From positions 62,001 to 126,000 of the IMG/VR virus record IMGVR_UViG_3300035698_024657: a DNA stretch of 64,000 bases; one strand, written 5' to 3'. How positions within the stretch are numbered: the first letter of the stretch is position 1; each line of letters starts with the position of its first letter. The notes beneath the pieces were generated by a model. That model saw only the letters and a list, made by a program, of their open reading frames with translations. It ran no database searches and was not told where the DNA came from. Position numbers and translations under genes: made by a program. Below, one piece after another: positions 9,074 to 62,812 of the stretch. The DNA comes from a virus.

Positions 9074-9076
9074 TAG

Positions 9077-12768: not shown

Positions 12769-12777
12769 AATTTTCCT

Positions 12778-12993
12778 TTACCAGATCTCGAGATCGTGTG
12801 AACCGCAATTACTACAATATATTAGACTACCATCAATAGTTGCGGCCGGCTCACCTTCAGTAGTATTCAATATCGTATGCGTAGTGGCACAAACCGAAGG
12901 CACACAGGTAGTTAATATTCTCCCGCAATTACTACACCATACAGCTTCCATCGAACCAAGTGCACACTGTATCTTCATTTCTTTGATATTCAG
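12778..12993 (-). CDS. Small zinc-ribbon protein with N-terminal QCALG motif, CTG start
   Basis: About 71 residues. I assign a CTG start at 12993, because the following residues (NIKEMKIQCALG) align position for position with MNKKEQDVQKALG and relatives, and CTGA overlaps the upstream TGA stop exactly where ATGA usually would. A longer ORF from ATG 13041 would overlap the cupin gene by 52 bp. After the motif come CSNCG and, near the end, CSNCGSHDLEIW: two C-x2-C knuckles, with further Cys between. Function unknown; it is the only motif-bearing protein inside the sugar-nucleotide genes. Confidence 0.6.
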   Translation of the reverse strand: MNIKEMKIQCALGSMEAVWCSNCGRILTTCVPSVCATTHTILNTTEGEPAATIDGSLIYCSNCGSHDLEIW

Positions 12994-14966: not shown

Positions 14967-14976
14967 ATATTTATTC

Positions 14977-19934: not shown

Positions 19935-19940
19935 ATTTAT

Positions 19941-20744: not shown

Positions 20745-20756
20745 AATACTGTTCCC

Positions 20757-23284: not shown

Positions 23285-23288
23285 TTAA

Positions 23289-24449
23289 TTAGCCCAATTC
23301 ATTTAACTTTTCCAAATATTTAGATGCTAAGACATCCCACGAATAGTTTTCTTGAATAATAATACGATTAGCATCACCTAACTGTTCCAATGTAGGAAAA
23401 TTATCACATGCGAATTGCATTTTTTGCATTAAATTATATGCACTGGGGGTAAACATAGGTACATCACCATAAGGCAAAATAGTTTGATCCATGACATCTA
23501 CTAATAGAGGATAATCTAAAGGAAACCATTCATTCATTGGTGGCGCATTCGTAGTAATTACCGGCAAGCCACAAGACATCGCTTCTAATATGGGGAGACC
23601 TAATCCCTCACGCCTACTCGGTGCCAAATAAATTTTACCGTTGCGATAAAGATCAATTGCATCGGGTACTTCAGCTAAACTGACATATTCTTCGCCCTGC
23701 GGATGACGTAAAGGGTTATGTGCCTTCTCACCTATCTGGCTATGAATATTTATACTAACCTTACCTTTATATCCTTGAAATTCTAACTGACGGAACGCAG
23801 TTTGAACAATATCAGACCCTTTACGCACACCTGAGCCCCCAAAACCTACGCTATGGAGAAAAGTGTACTGCTTTTGACTTATTTTATCGATTACATCAGA
23901 AACTTCAAGAGATCCTTTAATGTCTGAGGAAGACTGCACAACGCCATCTACTAAAATATGGCTGGGAGAACTTTTTCTCCCCAATTTACAGTTTTCTGGA
24001 CAAAAATAATCGGTATCTATAGGAAAAGGGAGATGTACACATTCCCCTGGCCAAGATTCTGCGTAAATAGCTGCCCCTATTTTAGTAACATTGATTACAA
24101 GATCAATATACTCGGCATAAGGAAGAAATTTGGCGAGTTCAATACTATCAATCATCGGAATGAGAACAATTTTAACTCTGCTCGCTGATAATATTTCAAA
24201 AAGATCAAAATTGAATGGGGTTTCAAGAAGAATGACAACGTCGGGCTCACACGTATCCAAATATTCGTGAATTTGTGAGGGAGTAAGTGAAATATCCCCA
24301 AAAGTGTGGGGAATATCTACATCAAGTGTGCCCTTAATGGGATGGTTGATAACTAACTGACTATCAATGGGAAGATATTTTCGAAAATTTGAAGCAATCA
24401 CACCCAGGCCACTATGATTCGAGTACGCAACGAGACCTATCTTGCACAT
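23289..24449 (-). CDS. GT4-family glycosyltransferase
   Basis: A 386-residue GT-B enzyme. The donor-binding signature is SRREGLGLPILEAMSCGLPVITTNAPP, with the E-x7-E motif of family 4, preceded by IYLAP. LVAYSNHSGLGVIASNFRKYL is the N-terminal acceptor loop, and KFLPYAEYIDLVINVTKIGA lies in the first domain. Part of a run of six GT-B genes between 22370 and 28894. Donor and acceptor unknown. Confidence 0.85.
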   Translation of the reverse strand: MCKIGLVAYSNHSGLGVIASNFRKYLPIDSQLVINHPIKGTLDVDIPHTFGDISLTPSQIHEYLDTCEPDVVILLETPFNFDLFEILSASRVKIVLIPMIDSIELAKFLPYAEYIDLVINVTKIGAAIYAESWPGECVHLPFPIDTDYFCPENCKLGRKSSPSHILVDGVVQSSSDIKGSLEVSDVIDKISQKQYTFLHSVGFGGSGVRKGSDIVQTAFRQLEFQGYKGKVSINIHSQIGEKAHNPLRHPQGEEYVSLAEVPDAIDLYRNGKIYLAPSRREGLGLPILEAMSCGLPVITTNAPPMNEWFPLDYPLLVDVMDQTILPYGDVPMFTPSAYNLMQKMQFACDNFPTLEQLGDANRIIIQENYSWDVLASKYLEKLNELG

Positions 24450-24450
24450 T

Positions 24451-25434
24451 TTACAACCTTTTCTTAATTTCGTCTATAAATCCCGCAGTAATCTTATCTA
24501 TGTTGTAATTCTCAAGTACGTACTGTCTTCCCTTGGTCGCAATTTCCTCTCTTTGACGAGGGTTACTGAGGAAGAACGCGATCTTCTCTACTAAGTCGGG
24601 ATAATCCATAGGGGAATAGGTAACACAGTGTTCCCCAGCGGTTAAGACCTCATCAAAATAGGGAATATCTGGTGTAATCAGGCAACAACCCGAACCGGCA
24701 GTTTTGAGGACTCTGTTTGAGAAACCTAACTCGTATTGAGGTAATAAATCATTGACAAAATTCAACCCAACTCTCGCACGAGAGTAAAATTTTGCCATCT
24801 CACCGCCTATTAAAATCCCATTGCTAAAGAAATGTGTATTTGGAATCTTCTCTTGATAGTCACCCCAGTGAAAAGATCCCCCACCAACCTGAACATTATG
24901 TCCATCGGTGATCAACTGAGATAGAAACTTTAATCTAACAGTCGATTGAGCGGGATTAGGTCCACCAAGAAAACCAACATCAAATGAGTACTGCCCGCGA
25001 CGTTCGATACACGTATGATATCGATGATCGAAGAATTGAGGAACCCAGATAACATCTTTAGCATACTCCTTAAGTATTGGTACAAGGCCACGAGTTTCTA
25101 ACATCAGTAAATCATAGATACCTTTGATCCCTTTGAACCATGCCCCCGACTGCCCATCATCGGGACCGTATTCATCGGGAATCCACTGTGCTAAAAATAT
25201 TCCCGCGTCTTTCAAAGGTTGCAAAAGGGTATGATCAAAGTTCCTACCCATAGTAACAAGACAAAACTCTGGACGGTGCTTCAAAATTTGAGCAATTGAG
25301 TCACTGGTATGCGCAGTCAACTTATTAAAAGATACCATCTGAACGGAATGATGTTGAATTGTCCATGATTGTGCAATTCTTATACTATTCTGCGACGCAT
25401 CCTCATCACAATAACCAATTACAGTTATTCGCAT
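24451..25434 (-). CDS. CgeB-like GT-B glycosyltransferase
   Basis: A 327-residue protein of the CgeB-like group. [19 protein letters not shown] starts the first domain; [18 protein letters not shown] and [42 protein letters not shown] form the donor domain, with [15 protein letters not shown] and a C-terminal [10 protein letters not shown] helix. It overlaps the upstream gene by 10 bp. It is clearly a relative of 22370-23284 in domain plan. Confidence 0.78.
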
Positions 25435-26417
25435 ACTTTTTCAAATACCCTCTGCCACTCTTTTATAAACCTTATAGGGCCAAAGAACTCGCGCACTACC
25501 TGTCGAGCACTGTCGGCCATCAACCGTGACTTCAATGAGGATTGTGACGACAATGCAGCAGTAATTCCATCCCGAAGTTCTATCGGGTCATTACTAAATA
25601 CGCCGTGCATACCAGATTTAAAAATATTACCTGGTTCACAATAAGCAGTAGATACTATTGGAGTACCTACAGCAGCGGCTTCCAACAAAGACATCGGAAT
25701 AGGTGACATTATTGATGGATTAAAATACACTCCCGCATTCACTAATAGATCAAGGATTTCTTCACGTGGTCGGGCACCTTTAGAAAACTTGCCAATATTA
25801 TCATTCCCATAACCATATAGTGAAATATTATCAAAATGGGGTTCAGCAGAAACACCAAGTACATTCGCCCAAAGCGTAAAGCCACAAGCCCAGTCTCTGG
25901 TGATCATCTCATTTGTAGTCGTCATAATCTCGGTACCGGAATAATCTGTCTTTTGGGGAAATGCGTCGACATCAAATGAATGATAGATATACGAAGAATT
26001 TTCATCCCTTTCCATATCCCACGCTTTTTGCGACGTAGGGGTAATAAATACATTATGCGTAAGATACTGATGCCTTATATTTTTCCACTTATTCACTTCA
26101 CCCGGATAATTTTTAAATGGCCAAGTATGCTCAAGCATAACTGCAGGAAGATACTTACCCCAAGAAGAACAAAAAGTCTCAATAAATGGGTGCCAATGAA
26201 TTAACATTAAATCAAAATCATCGGGATTTACTCCGGCAGCCTCAATACCGTGAATATTATCAGGTATTTTAGCACTTCCGGGCCATACGCTTTTTGGTCT
26301 TTTATCTTCTGGCCAAAAGCCATGTGAATCTATGACATGAAAAAATTCTACCATTGGAATCTTTGCTAATTCCAATTGATAGCTTTCATGCGCGAAATGG
26401 GTTAAAACGCGTAGCAT
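25425..26417 (-). CDS. GT-B glycosyltransferase (family 4-like)
   Basis: A 330-residue GT-B protein. [16 protein letters not shown] and [15 protein letters not shown] lie in the acceptor domain; [38 protein letters not shown] is the donor domain. The first Glu of the E-x7-E motif is replaced ([11 protein letters not shown]), so catalysis or donor binding may differ from typical family 4. GAGGGC lies before ATG 26417. Confidence 0.75.
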
Positions 26418-26450
26418 ATGCCCTCACTGATTGTCGAATTTAACTCCATA

Positions 26451-27620
26451 TCATTGATTCAAATCAGTGATAGCTTCCGCAAGCTGCGTTGCAGCACTCG
26501 TCCACGAAAAATCACGTTCAATGAGTTCCTCACGTTGCTTTGTAGCATTTTCTTTTGAAATCTCTTGATGCTTATATAAACGGTGCACCATTCGCGCATA
26601 CTCTTCAAGATCAGGAATAGCAAGTTGTTGATAATGTTCATATACTCCAGGCCAATGAACTACGTGACCTAAAGGTTTCCACTCATAATCCAACATAATA
26701 GAATACTTAGGATTCAAAAATGCTTCTGAACCTGTACCACCAGTAGTAATGATAGGCAATCCCATCGCGGCGGCTTCCAGCAAAGGCATACCCCACGCCT
26801 CGCCAGCAGACGGCAGGATAAACGAATCTGCATTACGATAAAGTTGCATCATATGCTCTTCAGACAACGCACCATGAACAAGATAAATTCTCGGCCCCTG
26901 ATCTGGCGCAATACCCATCTGCTGTCTAATTCCTTGTATCTGTGCATCAACCCCGATCTTATCTATCGTACCTGCACCAACTAAATACGTCTTTAAAATA
27001 AGTCCGACATCAGAATTACCTTTAAACGTGTTTAAAAATGTACGGATAGTTGCGAGCATATTTTTACGGTCACCTTGTTGAATCCATTGACCAACACTGA
27101 GGAAGTTATACTTCGTCGTGATGACCGTATCATCAAGTAGCGGGGGACCTTCAGGAGTGTACATATCAAAATCAATTCCAAACGGCACTATTCTGATAGG
27201 TTTAATAATGTTTGATTGCATAAATGCAGACATGCAAAAGGCAGACGGGACAAAAATTGCATCCATTTGATTACATTTAGCTGCCCACTGCTGTGCAGTT
27301 TTATCCGTTTCCATCATCGTAAACCCGATAGATTTCTTGAATGGACTTTGATCCCCAAAGAACTCGGTGGCAATTGAAAAATGCACCAACGTAGTATTGG
27401 CGTGATCAAGTTCTTTCCCTTTTTCGACGAGTCCATTTAAAACTGCCTGATCCGCGGGATCAAGTGCAAGATTGCCAGAATTGATCCAAACAATGGGTTC
27501 TAAATACAAATCAAATATATCCAACTTATGCAATTCCAGAATAAACTTCCGAGCCACCGTTGCATATCCAGAAAAATCTTGAAAGGGTGCTTTAAATAGA
27601 ACTTTTAACTTCTCTGACAT
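26451..27620 (-). CDS. GT4-family glycosyltransferase
   Basis: A 389-residue GT-B enzyme. KVLFKAPFQDFSGYATVARKF is the N-terminal acceptor loop, NFLSVGQWIQQGDRKNMLATI opens the donor domain, and PSAGEAWGMPLLEAAAMGLPIITTGGTGSEAF carries E-x7-E. It starts in the TAATG that ends the next GT4 gene upstream. A 33 bp gap separates it from the downstream glycosyltransferase. Confidence 0.85.
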   Translation of the reverse strand: MSEKLKVLFKAPFQDFSGYATVARKFILELHKLDIFDLYLEPIVWINSGNLALDPADQAVLNGLVEKGKELDHANTTLVHFSIATEFFGDQSPFKKSIGFTMMETDKTAQQWAAKCNQMDAIFVPSAFCMSAFMQSNIIKPIRIVPFGIDFDMYTPEGPPLLDDTVITTKYNFLSVGQWIQQGDRKNMLATIRTFLNTFKGNSDVGLILKTYLVGAGTIDKIGVDAQIQGIRQQMGIAPDQGPRIYLVHGALSEEHMMQLYRNADSFILPSAGEAWGMPLLEAAAMGLPIITTGGTGSEAFLNPKYSIMLDYEWKPLGHVVHWPGVYEHYQQLAIPDLEEYARMVHRLYKHQEISKENATKQREELIERDFSWTSAATQLAEAITDLNQ

Positions 27621-28894
27621 TATCGAGTCTCCTCATCGGGTACCATAATTTTAGGTGAATCAGCAGGAATTGGATACGCTGACACAGTAAATTCTGGATA
27701 AGGTGTCCAATTGGCAACAGCTTTCTTTACGGCATCTTCAAACCGCTGTTGTACGGGTTTCAAAGAATACTGTGCTAAAATATGATCACGACACTTTGCA
27801 CCCTTTTCCTGTAACATTTTCTTATTATAGTATGCTTCATCTAACGCAGCGACAAATTTCTCATCCGTAACGTATCGCGTATGAATATACGGAGTTACCT
27901 GGTTACCATACAAAGGCATAACATCCGCAGAAAGTAACCAACCTGTATCATCTGTAATTAATCCTGCAGGTCCTGGACAATTAATTGAAATTGCGGGCGT
28001 CCCTGCAAGCATAGATTCGGCAATAGGCATGCCAAAACCTTCGGCAGTTGATCTATTTACTAATACATCCATAAGATTATAGAATTTATTAATCAACTCA
28101 TCGGTTTGTTGTGCAGGATTTGCATTACTGAATACAATAGAAGAATTACGATATCTCATCCGCATCGCGTATTCAAGACTATGTCCAGCATCTGTACCCG
28201 GAGAATGTACAAACAATAATGCATCGTCCTTATCTTTTTGCCATGCATCGAAGGTTTCCATAATAGACAAAAGCTGTTTACGCTCTGCATGTCTACCAAC
28301 AGTACCTACAATGAAAGTCGCATTCACATGTTTATTGCCGGTATAAGTATTGAACTCCGTACGAAAATCTGTTTTCTCTTGAGTAGTTAATGGATGATAA
28401 ATATTAGGATCAAATCCAATAGGTACGTAATCAACGGCGTCATCATTAATATCAGGATGACCCGTCATTAAATCGTAAGTAAATTGTGACCCGCATATAA
28501 TATGATCACAACTATTATAAAAGGGCATATTATAATCAGGAAAAGGAAGATCATCCCAAAGATGATAAAAAATTAATGGGCATTGTCGCCTAATTTCATT
28601 ATCCATCTTAAAGAGATAATCAAAAAATCGCGGATCCGCATTCGCAAGAATTGCATCAGGTTTTTCTGTAGTGAGAAAATGTCTAACATGTTCCTGATTT
28701 CCATATCCAGGAACGGGCCAAACCTTACAACCTTCCCAGTCTGTAGGTTGAAAAGGAAAACGTGCCTGGGGCTGAGAAGAGGCCATGAAAATTATTTCAT
28801 GTCCCTTTGTCTTCATATGTCGTGCAAAAGCAGCAGCAATCTTACCGTAACCACTGTTTATGGCAGGATTATCACTAATAACCAATACTTTCAT
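27620..28894 (-). CDS. GT4-family glycosyltransferase, first gene of the glycan block
   Basis: A 424-residue GT-B enzyme. LVISDNPAINSGYGKIAAAFARH is the N-terminal loop, TFIVGTVGRHAERKQLLSIMETF opens the donor domain, and NRSTAEGFGMPIAESMLAGTPAISINCPGP carries E-x7-E. GGAG precedes ATG 28894 by 8 bases. The 75 bp gap upstream holds a promoter-like box, so the glycan block may have its own transcription start. Confidence 0.87.
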   Translation of the reverse strand: MKVLVISDNPAINSGYGKIAAAFARHMKTKGHEIIFMASSQPQARFPFQPTDWEGCKVWPVPGYGNQEHVRHFLTTEKPDAILANADPRFFDYLFKMDNEIRRQCPLIFYHLWDDLPFPDYNMPFYNSCDHIICGSQFTYDLMTGHPDINDDAVDYVPIGFDPNIYHPLTTQEKTDFRTEFNTYTGNKHVNATFIVGTVGRHAERKQLLSIMETFDAWQKDKDDALLFVHSPGTDAGHSLEYAMRMRYRNSSIVFSNANPAQQTDELINKFYNLMDVLVNRSTAEGFGMPIAESMLAGTPAISINCPGPAGLITDDTGWLLSADVMPLYGNQVTPYIHTRYVTDEKFVAALDEAYYNKKMLQEKGAKCRDHILAQYSLKPVQQRFEDAVKKAVANWTPYPEFTVSAYPIPADSPKIMVPDEETR

Positions 28895-32335: not shown

Positions 32336-33358
32336 TTAACGTCTACGACGATAAACAATACGTGCAGTGCACTCCGTAATAGATGCACCCGCTTCAGCAA
32401 TTATAAAACGTAAAGTATGGCCCGAGTAATACGCCAAATTTAAAGTTTGAGTAGTCCAACCATCAAAAGTGGCAGTGGGCGGCGCAGTGGAAATATTTCC
32501 AATTAATGTTTGATTTGGAATATATGCGGTTGATCCAGAATACAAATGTAACGTAACTGCTCCGGTAGAACCTTGGCACATTATCTGCAAGGAATCAAGT
32601 GTAAAATTACGTGAAAGCCTACCACTAAAAGTATGTCCGACTTGTGGATATAGGAAACCTATACTCTTTTCCATCTGTGTAACTAAATCTATTTCGTGAA
32701 CATTTACAAGATCTTCAATGGTACCTACACGCCCATCTTTTATACGAAATGATGGACGATCATCGAAAATCGCATACCAAGTGCTATTACTTGTACTATA
32801 ATACCCGTCCCCTGTATAGTCTTTTACAATGCTTCCACTCACATCAAGTACCATTGAAGCAAGAGTAATGCCTGCGGAAGTTGGAGTAGCATCAACAGAA
32901 ATAGTATAACTGTCATAAACTCTCGCAGAATATTCATTGCCCGCATCATCATATTGAGTATTATCATACAGAGGAGTATGCGCAATATTAACATAGTATC
33001 TACCCGCAACCGTGACCCCAGTAGATAAATTCGTACGATTAGGTAATGCGGGACGATATAAGGGATCTGCACCAAGACTTCCACTAACAGTAGTTGCAGA
33101 AGGCACAGTAATTAACTGACCTTCCGAATCCACTGCGGTGCCGGGAAATATTTCAAAAGTAGTACCATCCGCGGTGGCGACTTGCAATGAAGGCTCAGCA
33201 GTAATCTTAGACGATACCACACCAGAACGCACCATAAATGCTTTTAAATAATCCCGGAACACTTTTGTACGCGAGTAACTTACCATATTAAGGTCTTTAG
33301 CAGTCACATGCTGATCATCAAAAAACTGACTACCATAACCATTAAGTACGTTTGCCAT
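32336..33358 (-). CDS. Tail fibre or baseplate appendage protein
   Basis: A 340-residue structural protein. The start MANVLNGYGSQFFDDQHVTAKDLNM resembles phage tail proteins that attach a fibre to the baseplate. The middle is beta-rich with a conserved-looking FEIFPGTAVDSEGQLITVPS and YYVNIAHTPLYDN; the C-terminal ~100 residues (SGRLSRNFTLDSLQIMCQGS and later LNLAYYSGHTLRFII) look like a carbohydrate-binding jelly roll. Family not recognised with certainty. Confidence 0.65.
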   Translation of the reverse strand: MANVLNGYGSQFFDDQHVTAKDLNMVSYSRTKVFRDYLKAFMVRSGVVSSKITAEPSLQVATADGTTFEIFPGTAVDSEGQLITVPSATTVSGSLGADPLYRPALPNRTNLSTGVTVAGRYYVNIAHTPLYDNTQYDDAGNEYSARVYDSYTISVDATPTSAGITLASMVLDVSGSIVKDYTGDGYYSTSNSTWYAIFDDRPSFRIKDGRVGTIEDLVNVHEIDLVTQMEKSIGFLYPQVGHTFSGRLSRNFTLDSLQIMCQGSTGAVTLHLYSGSTAYIPNQTLIGNISTAPPTATFDGWTTQTLNLAYYSGHTLRFIIAEAGASITECTARIVYRRRR

Positions 33359-33391: not shown

Positions 33392-34939
33392 TTACTCAAG
33401 TCCGGTAGCACCATTTCTAAATGGGGGTGGTCCGTTACTTACATGGTAATTTACAAAATATGCTAAATCAGCAATATCCACAGCACCCGTATCATTCATA
33501 TCTAATCTACGTACGGGCGCAGGAAGGGGACCACCATTAAACATATAGTTCACCATCGAGGTAAGATCGTTATATTCAACTAATCCATCGTTATTTGCGT
33601 CACCTGGAATATACGAACCTCCCCAAATATCTGACATATCCATAGGTTCATAAGGATATTCAAGTCCCGTGCTTACTCGAGAAACTGTAGTAAATGTTCC
33701 AGGATTGAGCGCAGAATACAATATATTTGCAGGATAGTCGACATACCCTTTGATCGAGAATTGGTGTAACTCAAAATCTCCTGAGCCACTCGCCCAAACA
33801 TGACAACGCCACTGATAATATCTCTTTACATCACCAACAGCAATAATTTGGCCTAATGCAACGCGGGAAAATGTTTCGGCAGATAAATCAAGAATGGTAT
33901 CCGCTGCGCGAATTTCAAACTTATACTGTGCCGCATTATATGTGCGCACCACCCAATCATATTTCCACTCATAATTAGTATAACCAAGAGGGGGAGTAAG
34001 TGTAGCTAAATCAAGTAAACTTCCTGGAGTATTCGTATTCGGCGCAGCGGCGCTTACAATAGTATCTTTTACAACTGTCTCTACGGCAGCAGAAAGAGAA
34101 GTATTATATACTAACATCGGATGAATCGCAGGGAAACCTAAATGCGAATCGCGACCAGAAAGAAAAGTGTCATACGACTGAAAAAGTCGGTGAAAAATAG
34201 ACGCAGATGAGGTTACTGTCGCAGTCTCTGAACCAAGAATAGTGGCATCAGAAGTAACCGCATTTACAATATATGCATCAGACAGTGCATCTTTACGTAA
34301 AGTAGTAATTTCAGCATTTGACGTAACTGACGCAATTTCTTTATATACTATTGGAGGAATAATATACGCATCGGATAATATCGTTTCGGTAGCAGGAGAT
34401 ACGTACGTTTCCGCATTAGAATAAACAGATACAACATCTTGTTGTACGTCTACTCCAATAATTTCAAATTCTACTGATTCAATAGCAGAAGTACTGCCAT
34501 GATTAGTATCCAAGAAAAGTTTAACGAACCGCGCGGACTGTGGAGCAACTTGATGATAATCACGTTCAATTTGTAAACTTCCACCAAAATAGAAAGTCGG
34601 AAAATTAATTTGACTCTCTATAACAATATTACCAAAAGTACCCGTCAACGAATCATCTAACCCAACACGGTAGGCTTTTACGCAAATATCACCAGGAGTC
34701 GCTGACCCCCAAAGCGCAAACCCAGAAAGAGTACGAGATTGTCCAAGGTCTATAATAATCCATTCATCACTTATATTCCCTTCACCTGTAGCATATCTCG
34801 TATAATCTTCGAGAGCAACCGCACCCTGATTTACGGGTAACCCATCGATGATATTTGTCGCAGCACGAGTAGAAGCATCCCACTGAGATGAGTAAGATAC
34901 AACTGTGCCTAATGAAGGAGCGATATTTGAATTAGCCAT
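33392..34939 (-). CDS. Tail adhesin with discoidin-like and dockerin domains
   Basis: A 515-residue protein. Residues about 20-175 resemble an F5/8 type C (discoidin) carbohydrate-binding domain: ATNIIDGLPVNQG, SDEWIIIDLGQSRTLSGFALWG and APQSARFVKLFLDTN. Residues about 170-260 carry a run of short SDAYI/SNAEI/TSDATI motifs. The next ~170 residues are a beta domain. Residues 446-505 are a type I dockerin with two calcium-loop repeats. It lies among fibre genes and is probably an adhesin. Binding partner unknown; a dockerin in a phage tail protein is unusual. Confidence 0.75.
   Translation of the reverse strand: MANSNIAPSLGTVVSYSSQWDASTRAATNIIDGLPVNQGAVALEDYTRYATGEGNISDEWIIIDLGQSRTLSGFALWGSATPGDICVKAYRVGLDDSLTGTFGNIVIESQINFPTFYFGGSLQIERDYHQVAPQSARFVKLFLDTNHGSTSAIESVEFEIIGVDVQQDVVSVYSNAETYVSPATETILSDAYIIPPIVYKEIASVTSNAEITTLRKDALSDAYIVNAVTSDATILGSETATVTSSASIFHRLFQSYDTFLSGRDSHLGFPAIHPMLVYNTSLSAAVETVVKDTIVSAAAPNTNTPGSLLDLATLTPPLGYTNYEWKYDWVVRTYNAAQYKFEIRAADTILDLSAETFSRVALGQIIAVGDVKRYYQWRCHVWASGSGDFELHQFSIKGYVDYPANILYSALNPGTFTTVSRVSTGLEYPYEPMDMSDIWGGSYIPGDANNDGLVEYNDLTSMVNYMFNGGPLPAPVRRLDMNDTGAVDIADLAYFVNYHVSNGPPPFRNGATGLE
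33425..33604 (-). other. Type I dockerin module
   Basis: Residues 446-505 of the adhesin. The first loop, DANNDGLVEYNDL, has the calcium ligands D, N, D and D in EF-hand-like spacing, followed by the helix TSMVNYMFNGG. The second loop, DMNDTGAVDIADL, keeps D, N and the last D but has Thr at the third ligand position, followed by AYFVNYHVSNG. The linker GGPLPAP is typical of bacterial cell-surface dockerins. Dockerins bind cohesins, so a partner on the host surface or in the tail is expected. Confidence 0.88.
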
Positions 34940-34948: not shown

Positions 34949-35533
34949 TTAATACCATTCGGCGTACAATGCTAACGAAACACTTGTATTTTCAATACCA
35001 GACGTACGTGGTTGTGCTGCAAGTCCTACATAATAATCATGAGTCATTCGGCCACTGCCACCAGAAAACGGCGTTAACACCAAAGGTGAAACACTACCAC
35101 TCATAACCGTCCAATTGGCCGCACCGTGTTCAAAACCTACAACGGTAACATTATGTAAGCCCCCACAACTAATACTTCCAGAAATATCGGTTGAATATGA
35201 TCCACTATATGCACAGAGTTTAACATTTTGTACTCTTGACGCCGACCCAGAAGTAAAACTTATGTGCAATGTACATTGCGCGGAAGGCAAAGAAGAAATT
35301 AATACCGAACCTGCACCAATATCGCCCATTCCTGGAGAATTCGATACATATCTAATATTCGGCAATTCTCCAGAATTGACCGTACCGAAAACATTCGTGG
35401 CAAATGTACTACTTTGATAATCATGCAGTGCAATAGAATCACCAAAATTCGTGCCAAAAAAGCCAATACGTGTGTGGCCCGAAATTGTGGTTACGTCATC
35501 GCCACCTTTCATGGTTACTGTAATTGCCATCAT
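34949..35533 (-). CDS. Structural protein of the fibre region, unknown
   Basis: A 194-residue beta-rich protein starting MMAITVTMKGGDD. Segments HTRIGFFGTNFGDSIALHDY, CTLHISFTSGSASRVQNV and NVTVVGFEHGAANWTVMSG suggest a sandwich fold; the C-terminus (SLALYAEWY) ends in a strand. It lies between two fibre genes and overlaps the upstream stop in TAATG. I do not recognise the family; a fibre tip or chaperone-like part is possible. Confidence 0.6.
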   Translation of the reverse strand: MMAITVTMKGGDDVTTISGHTRIGFFGTNFGDSIALHDYQSSTFATNVFGTVNSGELPNIRYVSNSPGMGDIGAGSVLISSLPSAQCTLHISFTSGSASRVQNVKLCAYSGSYSTDISGSISCGGLHNVTVVGFEHGAANWTVMSGSVSPLVLTPFSGGSGRMTHDYYVGLAAQPRTSGIENTSVSLALYAEWY

Positions 35534-37431
35534 TAATCTCCTAAAATATCCGCTTGACCACCATAGCTCGAATCTATCGTAGCTTTCTTATTTACAATCA
35601 TTCCATTTCTTATATCGTACACCGTAGCGTCAATATCTGATTCATTAAATTGATCGGTAGTAGTTTGTGCAACATAATAACGTTCATACAAGACAGTCAA
35701 TTTCGAGTGCGCAGGGGAAATCGCCTGTAGTGCAGCATCAATAGCAGGAGCACGCCCATCCTGACTTTCAGGTAACCATACAATTACATCAGTCACAATA
35801 TCCTGTCTCGCAGCTAATTTAGTATTAGTCCCTAATTTAGTATAAGATAAACTGCCACTATGAAAAGGTTCTATAGACCCTGACAATGCAGGTAATGTAG
35901 GAGTCACTGAAGGATTATATGGGCCCATCCACCTATTGAAAGTATCGTAATACACCCACGCAGAATAGTAATGATTTGTATGAGTAGTATTTGGATGCCA
36001 TAATGCACGTTGCGTACACTGCGGCTGAATCATATCACGTACAACATACGGTGGAGTATTAGGTGCTTGATGTGGTGTACCATCAGTTGAATACTGAATA
36101 GTTACTTTACACGTAGCGGCGGAGTCGCCAGAACAAGTAGGACAAGATCTTCCAAGATCCCATTGAAGAAGTGTCCCGGTGGCGTCGCCTAACATCTGTG
36201 CTTCAAAATTATGCATCCCTGCAGATTCGGTACATACAAATTGGGATTGAACACCCGTATCTACCATAAAAGTACGTGTGGCTAATCCATAAGTACTTGT
36301 ACGGTATGTGGCCGTAAATGCATTATGTATTCTCCCATCTACAGTTATCTCATTAGGTAATTGTTCCAGCCATACGGGATCCCCGCCAGTAGCGACACCT
36401 ATAAGACCATCATGGCTCATAGGATCAAGTAAAGTGATTTCACCTGCTGGGGTAATATCAAAGGTATACACTTTCAACGTTAAATTATCTACTGCTTCAT
36501 TAAAACCTAATACAAATAGATCATTGCCTAAAGGAAGGATATCCCCCTTACCAAAATCATTAAGAAATTCAACACGATCGATCGCAGAGGTACCAATGGC
36601 ACCCGTAGTATTATTGACCTCAATAGTTAATATCTGCCCATCGACCACAGCCTGAGTACGAAAAACAAGAACAACCATCTCATCGTTAACTTTACAAATT
36701 GTGGGCGAACTGTTAAAATTTACACCAAACGAAGTATCGATTGTTTCGACGGCACCTAAATCACTGAGCACTCCGGTGGCAGATACCCTAAAAGTACGCA
36801 TGTCACAATATTCACTGGGGCCCTTTACATAAACGAGTACATATAGATCATCTACAAGGTGACAAATGCGACTATCCCCAATACCGTCTGAAGTAAATTC
36901 TAACGCGGGGTTTACAGTGATGGTCCCATTAGCCGCAATCGTAAAAGTAACAAGAGTTCCATAATCTTCATCGTCCTCGGCTGCCGCACCACATGATATA
37001 TATACACGGTCCGCATTCGCTGCAGGAATTAAATCTCCATTATTCCACTGAGGGGCAAAATTAGCGCTGTCCGTTGTAGTAATATTACCTGCAAGATCGA
37101 CTGAAAAAGTATACACATATCCTGCGCCCGCGCCCGCTTCCGGTCCATTGACTTCGAGAACTAACCCTTCTTCTACTTGACACGCTCGAATATGACCAGT
37201 ATAGACATTAGTAAAATGTAACTCGGCAAGATAAGTATCATCGATATTACCGTTAGCGTCGATGCCAAAACTTCTGGCATAGCCATCATTACCGGTGGCC
37301 CCATCATGATATTTGCCAAGGCCGAGATAAATATTACCAATTGCGCGAACAACAAACGGATATCTAAGACCCGATAAGGGTCTTGGAAAAAATAGAAAAC
37401 TATCTATAAAAGTCGAATCGCCTCTAGCCAT
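35533..37431 (-). CDS. Tail protein with beta-propeller-like repeats
   Basis: A 632-residue protein. Residues about 20-380 repeat a pattern of the kind GNIYLGLGKY, DRVYISCGAA, LYVLVYVKG, MVVLVFRTQ and LFVLGFNEA, each followed by YTFD- or FTI-type strands and ANGTI/AGNIT turns, consistent with a beta-propeller. From about 400 on, a SCPTCSGDSAATCKV cysteine segment precedes a different beta domain with LTVLYERYYVAQT. No enzyme motif is seen. A likely fibre component or receptor-binding scaffold. Confidence 0.6.
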   Translation of the reverse strand: MARGDSTFIDSFLFFPRPLSGLRYPFVVRAIGNIYLGLGKYHDGATGNDGYARSFGIDANGNIDDTYLAELHFTNVYTGHIRACQVEEGLVLEVNGPEAGAGAGYVYTFSVDLAGNITTTDSANFAPQWNNGDLIPAANADRVYISCGAAAEDDEDYGTLVTFTIAANGTITVNPALEFTSDGIGDSRICHLVDDLYVLVYVKGPSEYCDMRTFRVSATGVLSDLGAVETIDTSFGVNFNSSPTICKVNDEMVVLVFRTQAVVDGQILTIEVNNTTGAIGTSAIDRVEFLNDFGKGDILPLGNDLFVLGFNEAVDNLTLKVYTFDITPAGEITLLDPMSHDGLIGVATGGDPVWLEQLPNEITVDGRIHNAFTATYRTSTYGLATRTFMVDTGVQSQFVCTESAGMHNFEAQMLGDATGTLLQWDLGRSCPTCSGDSAATCKVTIQYSTDGTPHQAPNTPPYVVRDMIQPQCTQRALWHPNTTHTNHYYSAWVYYDTFNRWMGPYNPSVTPTLPALSGSIEPFHSGSLSYTKLGTNTKLAARQDIVTDVIVWLPESQDGRAPAIDAALQAISPAHSKLTVLYERYYVAQTTTDQFNESDIDATVYDIRNGMIVNKKATIDSSYGGQADILGD

Positions 37432-37465: not shown

Positions 37466-40400
37466 TTATCCTACTGTAGGAGGCGTGTAACCGTCCTCAG
37501 ACAACACTAATTCATAACCGATTCTTGTTAGATCCATCAATAGACGTAGGTCATAAATCGGGCCAACATTAACAGTATTATTATCATTCACCAACACAAT
37601 ATAACCTACTGCGATCTTATCTGAAACCAAACTACCGCTTGTAAAGGTAGCATGCGCACCCTGCCATAAATTGTCTCTCCATGAAGGAGAATCAGTAAAT
37701 CTCCAGACACCTGAGCTAATAGAAGAAATCGGTCCGGTGGTGGATTTCAATTTCCACTGAGGAGTGGCGTAAGCATTCCGAATATCTGGATTCACTAAGG
37801 TAAAGGCATTAGCTGCACGAGTAATTCCATGATGCGTGCCACCGTGTACTGCGGCATCTAACATAAAATCAAGTTGCTTACGGTAACCCGGAATAGATGC
37901 ACGTTGCTCCGCTGAGCCAGATATTCCCGCGCCCGTTACGGCGTAGTGTACTGCAGAGTACGTGACAAAATTCGTAACATACCATGAACGTTCAAAATAT
38001 GAATATAAATCGGATACCCCCGCAGTAGGCCAGCCCACAAATGTAGTTGCCCCAGTAGAATTAAATGGTACATTAGGGAATTCTGCATATTGCGTCCAAC
38101 TATCTGTAGCCGGATTGAGATAAAAAACATCGCCATTATGTAATGCAACAACTAAAATATCGTTGTGCTTAGACATTGCATTAATTGCCCCAGTAAACGT
38201 ATGATCAGTCGCCCATGCAGTACCATCATACTTCCACATTGTATAACCATTGGTAGCATGATTGATCGCGGCATATAAATAATCTCCATGAGATATCATC
38301 TTTACCACGGTGTCGCCTGCAACGGCGGGCGTGCCAGCTGATGCAAAATTAGTACCATCATATGTAACCATATGATGGATGGGAGAACCACCCCATTTAT
38401 AAATTTTACCGCTTGATTCATCAAATGTGCCACAGAAGGCATAACCGAACGCAGTAGATAATGATCGAATTGGGCCTACACCACTATTTTGCATTAAAAA
38501 GAAATACGTTCCGTCGTTAGGGGATACCCACAACTCACCATTTTCTAATCCTACGTATAGTGCACCTAAATAGGAGAAGATGGCAGAAATCTCACCATTG
38601 TATCCGAAATAATGTGAGTATCTCCAAGTAGTGCCATCATCAGAAAATACTAAATATCCTGAATTATTTCGGGCATATAGATAATCACCGTGTGCGGCAA
38701 CAAGATAGCCAACATTATCTCCCGCGGTACCTAATCCACTTGGTGCGAATTCCCACGTAACTCCATCAGAAGATCGGATAATATTTTCTTCGCTATCACC
38801 TGCAGCATATAAATAACCATCAAATACTTGAAGAGAGACTCCACCCATATCTTGTACTGTAGCTGGTCCATAATTTACATGGACCCAATCCGTCCCTCTA
38901 GTAGTTCGGAAAATCGAACCACTGGAATCGCATGCAGCATATAGGTGGCCACCAAATTCGGCAAAATCGTAAATATTATCAGGTAAAATCGTGGGATCAT
39001 ATATGGTCCAATCACCAGAAGCAAATGGATAAGTTCCACGAAGAATTTCACCTTGATCGGTACCCGCGTACAGGAAGCTTCCTGATTCTATGAGACTATG
39101 TACACGTTCAATGGAGGCATCAACGTCAGTTAAATCTACGAGAGTAGACCACGTATCTCCCTCATCGTCAGATGTTAATAATAGTCCATTTATTCCCGTA
39201 GCCGCGAAATATGTGTCACTACTACCTGATGTAGTAAAATCACTAATTTCATCAGTAATTCCTGCTGCACCAGTATATTTTGCTTCCCATTCTTGGAATG
39301 GCGTATCTCTCGAAACATCAATCCACAATTTATTATCATGCACTTCCATCGCTTGTGCATCATAATCTAACGTACCAATAGCACCACCAACGTACGTTGC
39401 GAGGCCCGCTTCAGTAATGGTCATACCAATATCAGTGACGTCATCAGTTTCATAGGGCGTACACTTAAATAAAAGTGGATACCTATTTGTTTCGTCAGGC
39501 GCGTACATCGGCGTACCATTAGTATAAAGGGCTGTATTTGACGTATCTAATTGCGGTCCCGCAATACACCAATACATATTGTTGTGGAATATTACAGATT
39601 CGGTAGAAGTCACGTCATTGCGCATCGTACTTAGGCCCCAGGTCTCATCAGAGTCTTCAAGGAAGAAAAGTATATCGGAAACCGCTTCCGTATTCCATAT
39701 ATCATATTCATACGCACTTTCAGAAGAACCACTAACACGAGTACCTGAAGTAAGGCGATGTAACTGAAGACGTGGATAGCCCCCCTCGAGCGTATCTATA
39801 GGATAAACAATGGGTGTCGGAAATGGGCCAGTGCCTGGTGGCGCTTCAACTACTCCTGGGTAATCGTACGCAAAGAAATATAAATAATTTTTTGAATCAT
39901 ATACACCGCGACCATAATAAGGACGGTGAGTAGTTAAACCCCTCACAGGTACATTACTGGGTGAGAAATGTTGAGAGGGCGCATTACCTACTACAAATCT
40001 GGAAAATGTTGCAGGATTATATGCTACGAGATTATAATATTGTCCCCAATCAGTACCCCAAAGAAATTCACCGGGGTTCTTATAGTAAGTACCTATCGTC
40101 ACATAACAGTTGCTTATAAATAGATCGTCAAATACAACAGTATGCCCAATATTTAGGGAGTACGTCCAAGTATCGGCAACCGGAAGACCTGACGGATTAG
40201 ACGAAACATTTTGCGCCCAACTACCAAGACTCGTGGCTGTTTGAGTCACCTTCAATGTAGGAGTAATGAGACTAAACGTACCGCTGCCAGAAATATATCT
40301 ATCTTCTACGTAAGTTTGATCCGTGTACTTACCTTGCCCAAAATATGTTCCAAAGTTATCATATAGCGCAGTATTTTCACACGTAGTAATAAAGAGGTTA

Positions 40401-40558
40401 TTCCGCACGGTCTCGACAGCGGTTGAACCAGAAGTAAACTCGATACCATACATACGTAATACGTTATATAACTCAGTATCCGTAGAATACGTAGCAGTAT
40501 AATACGTAGTTACCGAACGTAATAGACTTTGAAGATATTGGTCATAAGTAATCGCCAT
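37466..40558 (-). CDS. Large tail fibre with Asp-box (sialidase-like) repeats
   Basis: A 1030-residue protein. The N-terminal ~250 residues are a beta-rich attachment region starting MAITYDQYLQSLLRSVTTYYTATY. The centre contains Asp-box motifs (S-x-D-x-G-x-T-W): SDDEGDTW near 462, SSDGVTW near 595 and SDDGTTW near 638, with degenerate copies between, each preceded by a LYAA-type strand, so a beta-propeller of the sialidase/BNR kind is likely. The last ~150 residues (HYANA-free, rich in Trp and aromatic residues) form a separate domain. No catalytic Arg triad or Tyr can be assigned, so glycan binding rather than cleavage is the safer call. Confidence 0.7.
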   Translation of the reverse strand: MAITYDQYLQSLLRSVTTYYTATYSTDTELYNVLRMYGIEFTSGSTAVETVRNNLFITTCENTALYDNFGTYFGQGKYTDQTYVEDRYISGSGTFSLITPTLKVTQTATSLGSWAQNVSSNPSGLPVADTWTYSLNIGHTVVFDDLFISNCYVTIGTYYKNPGEFLWGTDWGQYYNLVAYNPATFSRFVVGNAPSQHFSPSNVPVRGLTTHRPYYGRGVYDSKNYLYFFAYDYPGVVEAPPGTGPFPTPIVYPIDTLEGGYPRLQLHRLTSGTRVSGSSESAYEYDIWNTEAVSDILFFLEDSDETWGLSTMRNDVTSTESVIFHNNMYWCIAGPQLDTSNTALYTNGTPMYAPDETNRYPLLFKCTPYETDDVTDIGMTITEAGLATYVGGAIGTLDYDAQAMEVHDNKLWIDVSRDTPFQEWEAKYTGAAGITDEISDFTTSGSSDTYFAATGINGLLLTSDDEGDTWSTLVDLTDVDASIERVHSLIESGSFLYAGTDQGEILRGTYPFASGDWTIYDPTILPDNIYDFAEFGGHLYAACDSSGSIFRTTRGTDWVHVNYGPATVQDMGGVSLQVFDGYLYAAGDSEENIIRSSDGVTWEFAPSGLGTAGDNVGYLVAAHGDYLYARNNSGYLVFSDDGTTWRYSHYFGYNGEISAIFSYLGALYVGLENGELWVSPNDGTYFFLMQNSGVGPIRSLSTAFGYAFCGTFDESSGKIYKWGGSPIHHMVTYDGTNFASAGTPAVAGDTVVKMISHGDYLYAAINHATNGYTMWKYDGTAWATDHTFTGAINAMSKHNDILVVALHNGDVFYLNPATDSWTQYAEFPNVPFNSTGATTFVGWPTAGVSDLYSYFERSWYVTNFVTYSAVHYAVTGAGISGSAEQRASIPGYRKQLDFMLDAAVHGGTHHGITRAANAFTLVNPDIRNAYATPQWKLKSTTGPISSISSGVWRFTDSPSWRDNLWQGAHATFTSGSLVSDKIAVGYIVLVNDNNTVNVGPIYDLRLLMDLTRIGYELVLSEDGYTPPTVG

Positions 40559-40561: not shown

Positions 40562-41986
40562 TTATGTCCTAACAACGATTGTAAGTGTTCCTACAACAGC
40601 ATATGAATCTGCAGGAATAACAAGGTTTCCAGAAGAATCTTGAGTAAGCGTACCCGTCGAAGAACTTTCAGCAAATGTAGTTAAAGGCACGGTCACATCA
40701 TCCACACCTGTAGTGTCCGCAATTGCATTAAGTACATCAGACTGCTGTACTTCTTCACCGATAGTATAACTATTAAGGAAAGTAGTTAATGCAGTATTAA
40801 CATCAGTAGTGACGCCTGCAGCAGTATACCCAGGCAACGCCCGAATAACACAGGCTACATCAATCTGTCGAGGAATAGCACTCTTAACTAAAAGATCGGC
40901 CCCCAAAACTTTTCGAGAATCATCTTCCATATATATTTGCAAAGATTCAATCAAAGAATTATAAGAGTATACTATAGTAACTTCTTCCCCTGCAGTCAAT
41001 CCCGTAAATACAAATTTATCTGATCCCCTAATAGATCCTGCAAATTTACTTACATCCTGTGTAAGCGTATAATGCGTCCCCGCAATTAACGTTCCAGTAG
41101 TACTACCAATAAGTGAGAAGCCATCCGCGGCCAATACATTAATAGGTTGTTTTGAAACAACAAAGGTATACGGAGCACTTACAGGAACAGTGTATACTTC
41201 AGAAGGTGCCTGCGCAGTAATAAGTCCACGAACATAAATATCAACGGCGCCTACATCATTACGGCGCAACTCGGCAACACCCTCAGCAGATGATGCAATC
41301 TTCGCATCAAGCACGTCCGAGATTCGAGTAATCGTTTGATAGTACCCATCAGTAGTGCCTACATTATTGCCGGTAATAACTGCCTTCAATCGAGAACGGA
41401 AACTTGTTAGAGTTTCAAAATCTGCACCGTTCGTAAAAGCATTAAAATTGTATACTCCTGCGACACCCGTTATCGAATCTAAAATCGCGGCAAGCGCGCC
41501 AGGAGCAATATTTCCATCTACCCCCGCAACGAGTGCACGAACTTGAACATCTACTTCATATCGGCCAGTCGAACCATTGAAACTGGTAATGCCTAAAGTA
41601 ACGTCCTGCGTGGTCACATATTGTTGAGATGTACCATTAGGAGTGGCCTTACTCGCTACAGTCGTACCACGAGGAATAGTAATAGTCTCTGCGGGTGCCT
41701 CAAAAGAATAGAACGATGCAAGGCCCGTAGTTTTAAGGGGGCCTCTACGAAGTAGTTGAAAATTTCTACCTAACTGTTCAACATCGGAAGTACTTGCTAA
41801 ATCAGGAGATTGTGCATTTGCAGTTCGATTTAAATCAAGGTATAGACTTTCAATTTCCCGCGCAGGTGCATCAATAACAACGTCACGCGTAAACGTTCCT
41901 GGAGTAGTATCAACATTGGGACGTACACTATATAAAAAGTTACGCATTGCGTTCACAACGTTTAAAAAACTCTTAATTACTGCCAT
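40562..41986 (-). CDS. Baseplate J-like wedge protein
   Basis: A 474-residue member of the Baseplate_J family (P2 gpJ, Mu gp47, T4 gp6). The diagnostic parts are DAPAREIESLYLDLNRTANAQS, TIPRGTTVASKATPNGT, VQVRALVAGVDGNIAPGAL and FTNGADFETLTSFRSRLKAVI. It forms the baseplate periphery linking the hub to the fibres. The genes on its right are hub and tail proteins, on its left fibres, the usual myovirus order. Confidence 0.88.
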   Translation of the reverse strand: MAVIKSFLNVVNAMRNFLYSVRPNVDTTPGTFTRDVVIDAPAREIESLYLDLNRTANAQSPDLASTSDVEQLGRNFQLLRRGPLKTTGLASFYSFEAPAETITIPRGTTVASKATPNGTSQQYVTTQDVTLGITSFNGSTGRYEVDVQVRALVAGVDGNIAPGALAAILDSITGVAGVYNFNAFTNGADFETLTSFRSRLKAVITGNNVGTTDGYYQTITRISDVLDAKIASSAEGVAELRRNDVGAVDIYVRGLITAQAPSEVYTVPVSAPYTFVVSKQPINVLAADGFSLIGSTTGTLIAGTHYTLTQDVSKFAGSIRGSDKFVFTGLTAGEEVTIVYSYNSLIESLQIYMEDDSRKVLGADLLVKSAIPRQIDVACVIRALPGYTAAGVTTDVNTALTTFLNSYTIGEEVQQSDVLNAIADTTGVDDVTVPLTTFAESSSTGTLTQDSSGNLVIPADSYAVVGTLTIVVRT

Positions 41987-42833: not shown

Positions 42834-43358
42834 TTATAATGAATCAATTGCATCAAGTACTTTTATGTACTGATCAACCGAATCAATTTTATCCTCAATA
42901 GTAGTAACAGCTTTATCCGCAAAATCTACAGATTTTGCGGATTGCTGTGCTTCAAAATTTAACCCATTCACAATATTTTCCGCGTCTCTATATCCACCAA
43001 GAGATATGCCCTTAACCCCTGCTAAAGATAATAAGGTTTTAAGCAATTTAGCTACTTCAACACAATCCGCGAACTCTGGACCAATATTCAATAAATTTAG
43101 GACACGTTTCTGTTGACTAAGAATTGCGCCCGCAGAAGAGAATACTTTAAGGATTTCCGCCTGTTTCCGTGAGGCTATGCGCTTTTTATATGCATACGTG
43201 GCCAATTGTGCTATTAATGTACGTTTTGTTCTGTTCAACTGCATTCGCAATGCCATACGTGCAGGCCGAGATAGCCCAACAAGTGCTTTAATGAAACAAG
43301 TTGATACCCCAATCTCATCAGACATTTTTCGCAATTGTGGAACAGTAATTGTAGCCAT
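42834..43358 (-). CDS. Unknown alpha-helical baseplate-region protein
   Basis: A 174-residue protein, almost entirely helical: QLRKMSDEIGVSTCFIKALVG, RQAEILKVFSSAGAILSQQ, VEVAKLLKTLLSLAGV and a C-terminal helix DKAVTTIEDKIDSVDQYIKVL. A basic middle (LNRTKRTLIAQLATYAYKKR) is notable. It overlaps the repeat-rich fibre gene in TAATG. No match is recognised; a fibre-assembly chaperone or adaptor would fit the position next to the fibre. Confidence 0.55.
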   Translation of the reverse strand: MATITVPQLRKMSDEIGVSTCFIKALVGLSRPARMALRMQLNRTKRTLIAQLATYAYKKRIASRKQAEILKVFSSAGAILSQQKRVLNLLNIGPEFADCVEVAKLLKTLLSLAGVKGISLGGYRDAENIVNGLNFEAQQSAKSVDFADKAVTTIEDKIDSVDQYIKVLDAIDSL

Positions 43359-54048: not shown

Positions 54049-55446
54049 TTATACGTAAATGTAGAAAGAAACATTAATATAATTCAAAGGATACAAGAAC
54101 TTAACCGAACCCGTTACATTAATTCTCGTAGGTTCAGCAGTGTCCTGTGCCGCGGTAATCGCAACCTCACCCGTAGTAGGATCATTTCGAGTACCATAAG
54201 CAGCAATTAAACCATCACGTACCAATGACTGCCAAATTGCAGCAACCGTAGCAGCGACGGCTGCAGGAGTACCTTCACTAATTACAATTCCTTTACCAAT
54301 ATAAGCCTCATCTAACTTATCGCGAGTAATTCTACGTACCAAATCATCAGCAGCAACTACAGAAATTTCTCTATTATCCGCAGTTGAAGTATCCGTAGTA
54401 ATAGCATGACGTACTTTATTAACTCCAGATTTTGCATAAATTACACAAACTCCTTCATTCCCCATACGATTCATCTCATAGGGTTCATACTGATCATCAG
54501 GAATTACGAAACCTACAATCTGTTTACCTGTTACAGGGCGGATAAGCTTATCTTGCCCAGTAATTAAACCTGACATTGCCGCGGCAATATATTCACCACC
54601 TAAAGTAAGGGCGGTTCCTGCAGGAGATGTTCGAGTAACCGTTGCGGCAGGAGCCATCAAAATAACCCGCTTATTATCGTGCGCATCAGCCTTATCTACA
54701 AAATTCTGTACAGTATAAGTACTATTAAGCGCACCGATTATACATTCACGTTCATGTCCAATATCTGGATTAGATTCCTGTAAACAGTGCGCAATCACAT
54801 TATTCTGAATTGCAGAACCACTGGCAATCGGAACAACGTACGCAACAGTAGATTTTTTCTTCAACTTATTTAACGCAGTTGTCCAATTTGACGGGGTCGC
54901 AGGATTACCTGAAACCTGGACACACATAACTGCAGGTGCACCATTTTCAAGCGCCATCGCGGCACCGATAGTCATCTTACCTGTAGAAGTCGATTCGCTT
55001 CCATAAAAAGCTTTAACATCGTTAGAATCTACAAATATCGTTGGATCATATTGCGTAGATGGTACAGGATAGGTATACGAAACATAATATGTTTCACCTA
55101 CACGAGGACCAGTACTACCTGCGGTAGAATTCGTACCCCAATAAATTGCTCCGCCGGAACCAGATGAGTCATAATAATTCGCCCATGAAGAGTATCCTGC
55201 ACCTGCGCCAGGATAAGGTGAAGAAGTTAAATTAGAAATGTCTCCTGCACTACCACTATTAGGTAGTAAATCAAAACTACCTGGCTTGGTAGCACTGTAT
55301 GCACCGCGCACAATTGGATAATCAGTAATAACACGAGAAGATGGTCCACTTGCAACAATGCAGGGAATTCGTGCATCTTCCGAAATATTGATTATCCGAT
55401 TATTTGCAATACTGGTAACATTAACCGAAGGTGGTGTGTAAGCCAT
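54049..55446 (-). CDS. Contractile tail sheath protein
   Basis: A 465-residue protein with gp18-type sheath features. The N-terminus MAYTPPSVNVTSIANNRIIN has the extended arm that locks to the neighbour. The centre has FVDSNDVKAFYGSESTSTGK and GALNSTYTVQNFVDKADAH, HDNKRVILMAPAATV. The C-terminal DLVRRITRDKLDEAYIGKGIVI and FLYPLNYINVSFYIYV are typical of sheath C-termini. It proves a contractile tail. GGAGG lies 9 bases before the ATG; an AT-rich promoter-like box lies further upstream. Confidence 0.9.
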   Translation of the reverse strand: MAYTPPSVNVTSIANNRIINISEDARIPCIVASGPSSRVITDYPIVRGAYSATKPGSFDLLPNSGSAGDISNLTSSPYPGAGAGYSSWANYYDSSGSGGAIYWGTNSTAGSTGPRVGETYYVSYTYPVPSTQYDPTIFVDSNDVKAFYGSESTSTGKMTIGAAMALENGAPAVMCVQVSGNPATPSNWTTALNKLKKKSTVAYVVPIASGSAIQNNVIAHCLQESNPDIGHERECIIGALNSTYTVQNFVDKADAHDNKRVILMAPAATVTRTSPAGTALTLGGEYIAAAMSGLITGQDKLIRPVTGKQIVGFVIPDDQYEPYEMNRMGNEGVCVIYAKSGVNKVRHAITTDTSTADNREISVVAADDLVRRITRDKLDEAYIGKGIVISEGTPAAVAATVAAIWQSLVRDGLIAAYGTRNDPTTGEVAITAAQDTAEPTRINVTGSVKFLYPLNYINVSFYIYV

Positions 55447-61837: not shown

Positions 61838-62812
61838 TTAGGACGGGAATCCAGAGAATGTACCTCTCGCAACCGAATTAGCGTTAACCAACAGCATACC
61901 GAGCTCTTCATAACCGACATAGCCGATCAGTGCTTCTTTCGGGGTGTCGTCCGGAAGCAGGATAAGATCAGTACGAATAGGTAACACACCAGTGAACCGC
62001 GGCTCTGAATAACAGTAAACCCAGTTATTCGGGACCAAACGAGAAACGATTATATCGATTCCCCACAAAGATCCAACCAGGCCTGTCTGCCAGATTTCAC
62101 GCTGGGTTACAGGATCCACATCAGTGTTCACCCACGAACGTAAATGAGAATACGAGACAAAATTCATCAAATACGCATACGCCGGTAAATCCCATTTCAT
62201 GACAGTAGCGGAAAGCTGATTCATGAAATCCTTGGAACAACCACCAGTGGAAGTAACGATAGGGTTATTCGAAACGTTCGCGGCAACAGTAGTTTCAGTC
62301 AGTGCCAAGAACTGAGTATCCTCTTCAACCTGCACAGCGATACGAATCCGCTCCTGCATACGATCAAGGACATTGAAACGACGTTGCTGGATTTCTTTCA
62401 ACCTAATTGCCGCGGGTGCGAAAATTTCCCACGTAATCGGCTCGACATATTCGCCTTCAACGATAAACTGGACTGATTCGCCCTTCTTAGTCACCGTAGA
62501 AGCAAAAGCAGTAATGTCGCGATCATACCTAGCTATCTGACCTTGACCAAGAACGTCGATCTCGAAAAATCTACGCGCCATGCCCTGGTAATCCAACTGG
62601 GTACGAATAGGAATAGCCATCTGAGCTCCAAGAGCTTGACGACCCGCTTCTGTTTGTAGAAGCGTAAAAATCTGATCAGCTTCACTCGCATCTGTATATT
62701 GAGTGTAAGGATCAGTGGTAGAGAAATCAGCAGTCTTCTCTACACCGCCAAAACCTGCATTAGGTGCGGTCTTTTGGAACCCCGGAGGGTAAGAACTAGC
62801 TTGCTTATGCAT
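61838..62812 (-). CDS. Major capsid protein
   Basis: A 324-residue protein. The layout fits HK97-fold capsids: N-terminal arm (YPPGFQKTAPNAGFGG), IPIRTQLDYQGMARRFFEIDVL, EGEYVEPITWEIFAPAAIRLKE, then ERIRIAVQVEEDTQFLAL and a C-terminal YVGYEELGMLLVNANSVARG. AGGAGG lies 10-11 bases before ATG 62812, the strongest ribosome site seen here, as expected for the most abundant protein. The codon and base composition are somewhat less AT-rich than average. Head genes on its right and neck genes on its left support the call. Confidence 0.82.
   Translation of the reverse strand: MHKQASSYPPGFQKTAPNAGFGGVEKTADFSTTDPYTQYTDASEADQIFTLLQTEAGRQALGAQMAIPIRTQLDYQGMARRFFEIDVLGQGQIARYDRDITAFASTVTKKGESVQFIVEGEYVEPITWEIFAPAAIRLKEIQQRRFNVLDRMQERIRIAVQVEEDTQFLALTETTVAANVSNNPIVTSTGGCSKDFMNQLSATVMKWDLPAYAYLMNFVSYSHLRSWVNTDVDPVTQREIWQTGLVGSLWGIDIIVSRLVPNNWVYCYSEPRFTGVLPIRTDLILLPDDTPKEALIGYVGYEELGMLLVNANSVARGTFSGFPS

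Follow-up and report, generated by a model that had tools for sequence, protein, structure and literature searches.

A predicted type I dockerin at the C-terminus of a tail-cluster protein in an uncultured contractile-tailed phage

The window analysed here is a stretch of 64 kb, corresponding to bases 62001-126000 of a 130,254-base IMG/VR record of an uncultured virus. Its minus strand carries a head and contractile-tail cluster comprising major head, sheath, baseplate J and large fibre-type genes, the last of which ends at about 29.8 kb. The major head protein (61838..62812) matches phrog_2522 (E 2.9e-51), the tail sheath (54049..55446) phrog_2839 (E 2.4e-41), and the baseplate J protein or baseplate wedge subunit (40562..41986) both PF04865 (E 6.9e-20) and phrog_6. 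The presence of a tail sheath in the cluster identifies a contractile-tailed phage, or myovirus. By head and sheath, its closest INPHARED relatives are distant, at about 24-38% identity, and include Bacillus phage G together with mycobacterial and gordonial myoviruses. The gene studied here (33392..34939, minus strand) lies between baseplate J and the final genes of the tail cluster, and encodes a protein of 515 aa. The original prediction had placed it in the fibre gene set, a location borne out by its neighbours, among them baseplate J (PF04865) and the tail sheath. On the baseplate side, and on the same strand, stand three genes: that of a 1030-aa protein (37466..40558) for which Pfam returns propeller-type repeats (DUF6242, under the cut-off), that of a 632-aa fibre-type protein (35533..37431) and that of a 194-aa tail-cluster protein (34949..35533) in which no cohesin or other fold is recognised by sequence. 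Immediately downstream, also on the minus strand, lies the gene of a 340-aa tail-cluster protein (32336..33358) matching no Pfam or PHROG family.

Several other features of this phage deserve mention. A candidate fibre shaft is a protein of 948 aa that contains long, nearly exact repeats (DLNNQVSNVREYVDTVSGSIG; window 43358-46204, minus strand). The fibre genes adjoin about 18 kb of minus-strand sequence (window 10047-28894) with genes of sugar-nucleotide and glycosyltransferase type, including a DegT aminotransferase, an epimerase and several glycosyltransferases, which may add decorations to proteins of the virion or change the surface of the host. No tRNA gene was found in the 64-kb window. 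Two inteins were noticed (window 2611-5358 and stretch L004, 11118-14147), one of them within a DnaB-type helicase. In the same phage, a uracil-DNA glycosylase-DNA polymerase A fusion is accompanied by a Cpn60 chaperonin, which might serve to narrow down the host, and by a ribonucleotide reductase (L005, 13512-16316 and 17401-19074; L003, 14496-16583).

The 515-aa protein is composed of a discoidin-like N-terminus, a repeat region, a middle domain and a C-terminal dockerin, as deduced from the open reading frame, domain searches and a full-length relative 62% identical to it. Residues 16-153 (34481..34894, minus strand) match the discoidin or F5/8 type C family PF00754 with E 2.5e-5, and lactadherin C2 chains are among the weak matches of a PDB sequence search. 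The discoidin-like domain proposed in the original prediction is likely, but its 24.8 bits fall short of the Pfam cut-off of 28.2 and leave it less than certain. The N-terminus (MANSNIAPSLGTVV), judged by eye, shows no signal peptide, and the Pfam search detected no catalytic family in the protein. A cellulosome component was considered and set aside, since neither a signal sequence nor a plant-polymer enzyme or similar module accompanies the dockerin. The whole protein has no match among INPHARED isolated phages; weak matches of this and other viral dockerins are confined to unannotated faecal fragments.

The dockerin module occupies residues 446-505, encoded by 33425..33604 of the minus strand (GDANNDGLVEYNDLTSMVNYMFNGGPLPAPVRRLDMNDTGAVDIADLAYFVNYHVSNGPP(P)). 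Residues 445-496 match Dockerin_1 (PF00404) with E 1.2e-5 and 25.8 bits, above the gathering cut-off of 22.9 bits, and this is the sole dockerin in the whole 130,254-base record. When PDB chains were searched with a two-sequence profile, solved type I dockerins came out on top (best E 3.9e-4), with calmodulins lower. A search of all six frames of the window for the dockerin-loop pattern gave exactly two hits, which lie 33 codons apart within this one open reading frame. Codon-shuffled windows contained on average 0.025 single loops and no pair in 40 shuffles, and a chance loop match was rejected on this control. Like other type I dockerins, the module has two calcium loops in tandem, whose positions 1, 3, 5, 9 and 12 carry D/N-type ligands, with one deviation. 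The first loop, DANNDGLVEYND (33566..33601, minus strand), is canonical at every ligand position (D1, N3, D5, E9, D12). The second, DMNDTGAVDIAD (33467..33502, minus strand), has a threonine at position 5 (D1, N3, T5, D9, D12). The relative has D5 in its second loop but a glutamate at position 1, so that this loop is short of one usual ligand in both sequences compared. The description of the calcium loops as near-perfect is therefore accurate for the first and too generous for the second. Between the repeats lies a GGPLPAP segment (33515..33535, minus strand), to which DGPAPDP is homologous in the relative; GGPxP-type linkers after dockerin repeats occur in several uncultured bacterial phyla. 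The host origin that the original prediction suggested for this linker is conceivable. The surrounding signature DLTxxVxYxFxxGP retrieved one listed IMG/VR record, that of the relative, in a scan from which the window's own record was possibly omitted. On family match, PDB profile search and a loop pair beyond chance, the C-terminal module is by its sequence a genuine two-repeat type I dockerin, at the place where it had been predicted.

We modelled the module with AlphaFold2 from an alignment of 21 dockerin-type modules from virus contigs. The core, with pLDDT of 78-88, displays two loops, each followed by a helix. Compared with the PDB by Foldseek, its best 29 matches are all dockerins, with probabilities of 0.98-1.00 and rmsd of 1.5-2.5 A; TM-scores by target are mostly 0.66-0.87 and drop to 0.38-0.40 only for larger double-dockerin targets. 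As might be anticipated with a query of this length, no PDB match of the module model attains E 0.001. EF-hand proteins such as calmodulins appear far lower in the list, from E > 1. The model supports a dockerin fold rather than an ordinary EF-hand pair, although with dockerins in the input alignment itself this result is supportive and not an independent proof. The model of the full 515-aa protein, built from a two-sequence alignment, has a pLDDT of 28 and is unusable.

One other virus record spans the gene, IMGVR_UViG_3300035698_008725 (41,953 bases), the source of the full-length relative. Its dockerin is 65% identical to that of the window protein and scores 20.5 bits against PF00404 in a six-frame search, under the cut-off of 22.9. 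The two records are colinear across most head, tail and fibre genes, and the dockerin gene keeps its position within the tail and baseplate cluster in both. Identity decreases from 94% for the major head protein to 79% for the sheath and 44-71% for the fibre-type genes, as expected if the latter encode surface-exposed adsorption proteins. Within this range, the downstream 340-aa protein is 71% identical and the 632-aa fibre-type protein 44-47%; this protein and the 1030-aa propeller-type protein both diverge fast. Five more contigs carry the same major head protein (83-94% identical) and give no match to the fibre gene, baseplate J or the dockerin; judging from length and gene order they probably end before the region, and are consequently uninformative on presence or absence of the module. 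The comparison of related phages with and without the module, which had been proposed as a check, thus yields one relative at 62% identity that keeps it, but no information from the five head-protein contigs.

Between the two sequences, the dockerin has a dN of 0.29 and a dS of 1.72, giving a ratio of about 0.17, against 0.18 for the rest of the protein; with dS near saturation, these ratios are approximate. This substitution pattern clearly argues that the module is maintained under purifying selection. The possibility raised in the original prediction that it is a structural leftover is thereby disfavoured. A recent host-derived remnant devoid of function would be in keeping with the mainly bacterial distribution of dockerins and with a location at the C-terminus, a part of the protein that readily accepts additions. 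Such a remnant would hardly have retained 65% identity with a dN/dS of about 0.17 at a dS of about 1.7 in two diverged phages, nor does the composition of the module set it apart, its G+C of 41% matching the remainder of the gene. We regard this explanation as highly improbable.

The pairing of dockerins with cohesins depends on calcium and fixes complexes to cell surfaces (PMC12484212), and such pairs also occur away from cellulosomes (PMC9012536). Of the search for cohesins in host and phage genomes that had been suggested, the phage side was carried out: the cohesin family PF00963 has no match at E <= 10 in the full 130,254-base record. Likewise, it has none at E <= 0.1 in 32 other virus records with dockerin motifs, many of which are fragments. 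In a phage without a recognisable cohesin, the partner of the dockerin, if a cohesin, should lie outside the phage. At the positions that we take to be the usual cohesin contacts, according to the numbering assumed here, the module has Y-N and I-A at 11-12 and V-N at 18-19, unlike clostridial dockerins, which presumably have S-T and K-R there. The partner would then be a non-clostridial cohesin or no cohesin at all, and cohesins from clostridia would be of little use for testing it.

The original prediction had also envisaged that the dockerin might attach a further part of the tail by way of a cohesin-like domain in the virion, an idea that these searches leave without sequence support. A broader version, in which the dockerin docks inside the virion on a divergent partner and so links the adhesin with the tail or with another fibre, draws on the 194- and 340-aa proteins, which flank the dockerin protein in the two phages, are conserved between them and belong to no recognised family; a divergent beta-sandwich is conceivable in them. 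PDB sequence searches with both proteins returned noise only. Set against this version is the absence of PF00963 from the record and from the 32 others, several of which carry multiple dockerins, and we hold internal docking to be rather unlikely.

Dockerins are not restricted to this phage. A scan of IMG/VR with a dockerin-loop DNA pattern yielded 96 stretches, some of which resemble cellular sequence, while those from very large phages often have single loops inside long proteins. Pfam confirmed the dockerin in three sets of viral proteins. The first consists of 217-aa proteins with a C-terminal dockerin, encoded two genes after the tape measure gene (L021 and its relatives L040 and L067). 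In the second, proteins of 1351-1388 aa with a C-terminal dockerin are encoded directly after the tape measure gene (L035 and L038). The third is an 804-aa protein that combines a dockerin with the self-cleaving chaperone domain Peptidase_G2 (L084 and L090). Moreover, a 638-aa protein with three dockerin-loop pairs is encoded in the baseplate region of L112 (IMGVR_UViG_3300032030_000012, 140000-152000, the record from which L084 also derives). This large phage has, in addition, one dockerin loop inside a protein resembling baseplate J; the genes of these two proteins are at 8466-10379 and 935-3118 of L112, minus strand. The similarity of all these viral proteins to the window protein extends at most over the dockerin stretch, which makes more than one acquisition of the module probable. 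This distribution suggests, as far as sequence comparison goes, that dockerins have been grafted repeatedly onto unrelated viral tail-region proteins. The viral fold library BFVD already holds two phage proteins named 'Dockerin type 1' (A0A8S5M688 and A0A8S5NQH0, found by fold search only), and phage dockerins are therefore not new in themselves. In the open-access papers searched, we found no account in which an adsorption protein of a phage bears a dockerin; one paper deals with a carbohydrate-binding module from the cellulosome (PMC5967307), and another reports dockerin similarity for a single gene of a vibriophage, located close to the integration region (PMC3558961).

A different use may be represented in a 183.7-kb record (L034/L113, IMGVR_UViG_3300020112_000604), in which several of the encoded proteins are small, carry dockerins and seem to have signal peptides. 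Four of them lie on the minus strand of L113 (87000-100000) at 1553-2608, 4643-5752, 5799-6635 and 11243-12106, two being transglutaminase-like by eye. During infection these proteins may be sent out into the surface or cohesin system of the host itself. Very large phages (L013, L016, L045, L053, L080, L103 and similar ones) have in common a protein of about 1200 aa whose single GDVNGDGIID loop, located close to residue 600, may bind calcium in a structural role.

Such lone mid-protein loops, most simply understood as structural sites, lend some plausibility to a purely structural role in the window protein as well, namely that of a calcium-stabilised cap at the fibre end, serving stability, oligomer register or protease protection and binding no cohesin. 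Conservation alone would fit this role equally well, and contact positions unlike the clostridial ones agree with it. On the other hand, what has been kept is a complete dockerin, with both repeats, linker and helices, rather than a lone loop, and its matches are cohesin-binding dockerins rather than EF hands in general. We consider a cap improbable, though still worth weighing.

The reading that we prefer, tentatively and with somewhat less than even confidence, is that the C-terminal dockerin of the adhesin acts as a calcium-stabilised plug that docks on a cohesin-type module of the host surface. In this form, the tethering to cohesin-bearing hosts that the original prediction had proposed is plausible. 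The reading is based on the dockerin sequence, the predicted fold, the place in the fast-evolving part of the tail cluster, the selection on the module, the lack of a recognisable phage cohesin, and the occurrence of dockerins in unrelated viral tail-region proteins. The 515-aa protein would be a virion component involved in adsorption, either at the tail tip or as a side fibre. Its dockerin would fold around two calcium ions, be exposed at the tip of the adhesin and engage a cohesin-type module linked to the S-layer, the outer membrane or a surface protein of the host. The discoidin-like domain and the neighbouring fibres may make carbohydrate contacts, beside which the dockerin would add its own attachment. 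A wider proposal, that phages infecting cohesin-bearing bacteria have added dockerins to their tail proteins several times in independent events, with the host cohesin as receptor or co-receptor, is possible but more doubtful.

The usual phage receptors are sugars, porins, pili and teichoic acids. Should tail dockerins indeed bind the cohesins of the host, phage adsorption would have a new class of interface, built on a protein pair that is very tight and well understood. Cohesins would then point to hosts of uncultured phages, and surface cohesins outside cellulosomes would be under phage selection. Recurrence in unrelated viruses lifts the finding above a single curiosity.

The window dockerin shares with cellulosomal type I dockerins (PF00404; 3ul4, 6kge, 2ccl, 5nrm) the tandem loop-helix repeats, the calcium ligand pattern, the predicted fold and the C-terminal position. 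It differs from them in being carried by a phage tail-cluster protein that has neither signal peptide nor catalytic domain, in its contact residues and in having no known cohesin. In the non-cellulosomal dockerin and cohesin proteins of bacteria and archaea, such as those of ANME archaea (PMC9012536), the dockerin also resides on non-enzymatic, surface-linked or multidomain proteins; these are, however, cellular, with cohesins in the same genomes, whereas the window protein is viral and its record contains none. The GC-type dockerin (NF041540) is weakly matched by the module of the relative (E 2.9e-4), but at 21.2 bits against a cut-off of 29, and the window protein gives no match at E <= 0.01; membership in this type was consequently rejected. 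The dockerin proteins of other uncultured phages (L021, L035, L090, L112; BFVD A0A8S5M688 and A0A8S5NQH0) are likewise phage-borne and often encoded in the tail region, yet where compared they are unrelated to the window protein outside the dockerin, and no published function for them came to light. Phage tail proteins carry further host-type binding domains, among them discoidin, Ig-like and BACON domains, whose ligands are carbohydrates or unknown. These too are accessory binding modules appended to a tail or fibre protein, with the difference that a dockerin would use a protein socket. The addition of a binding module of host type to a tail protein is a known design among phages, here in a new variant.
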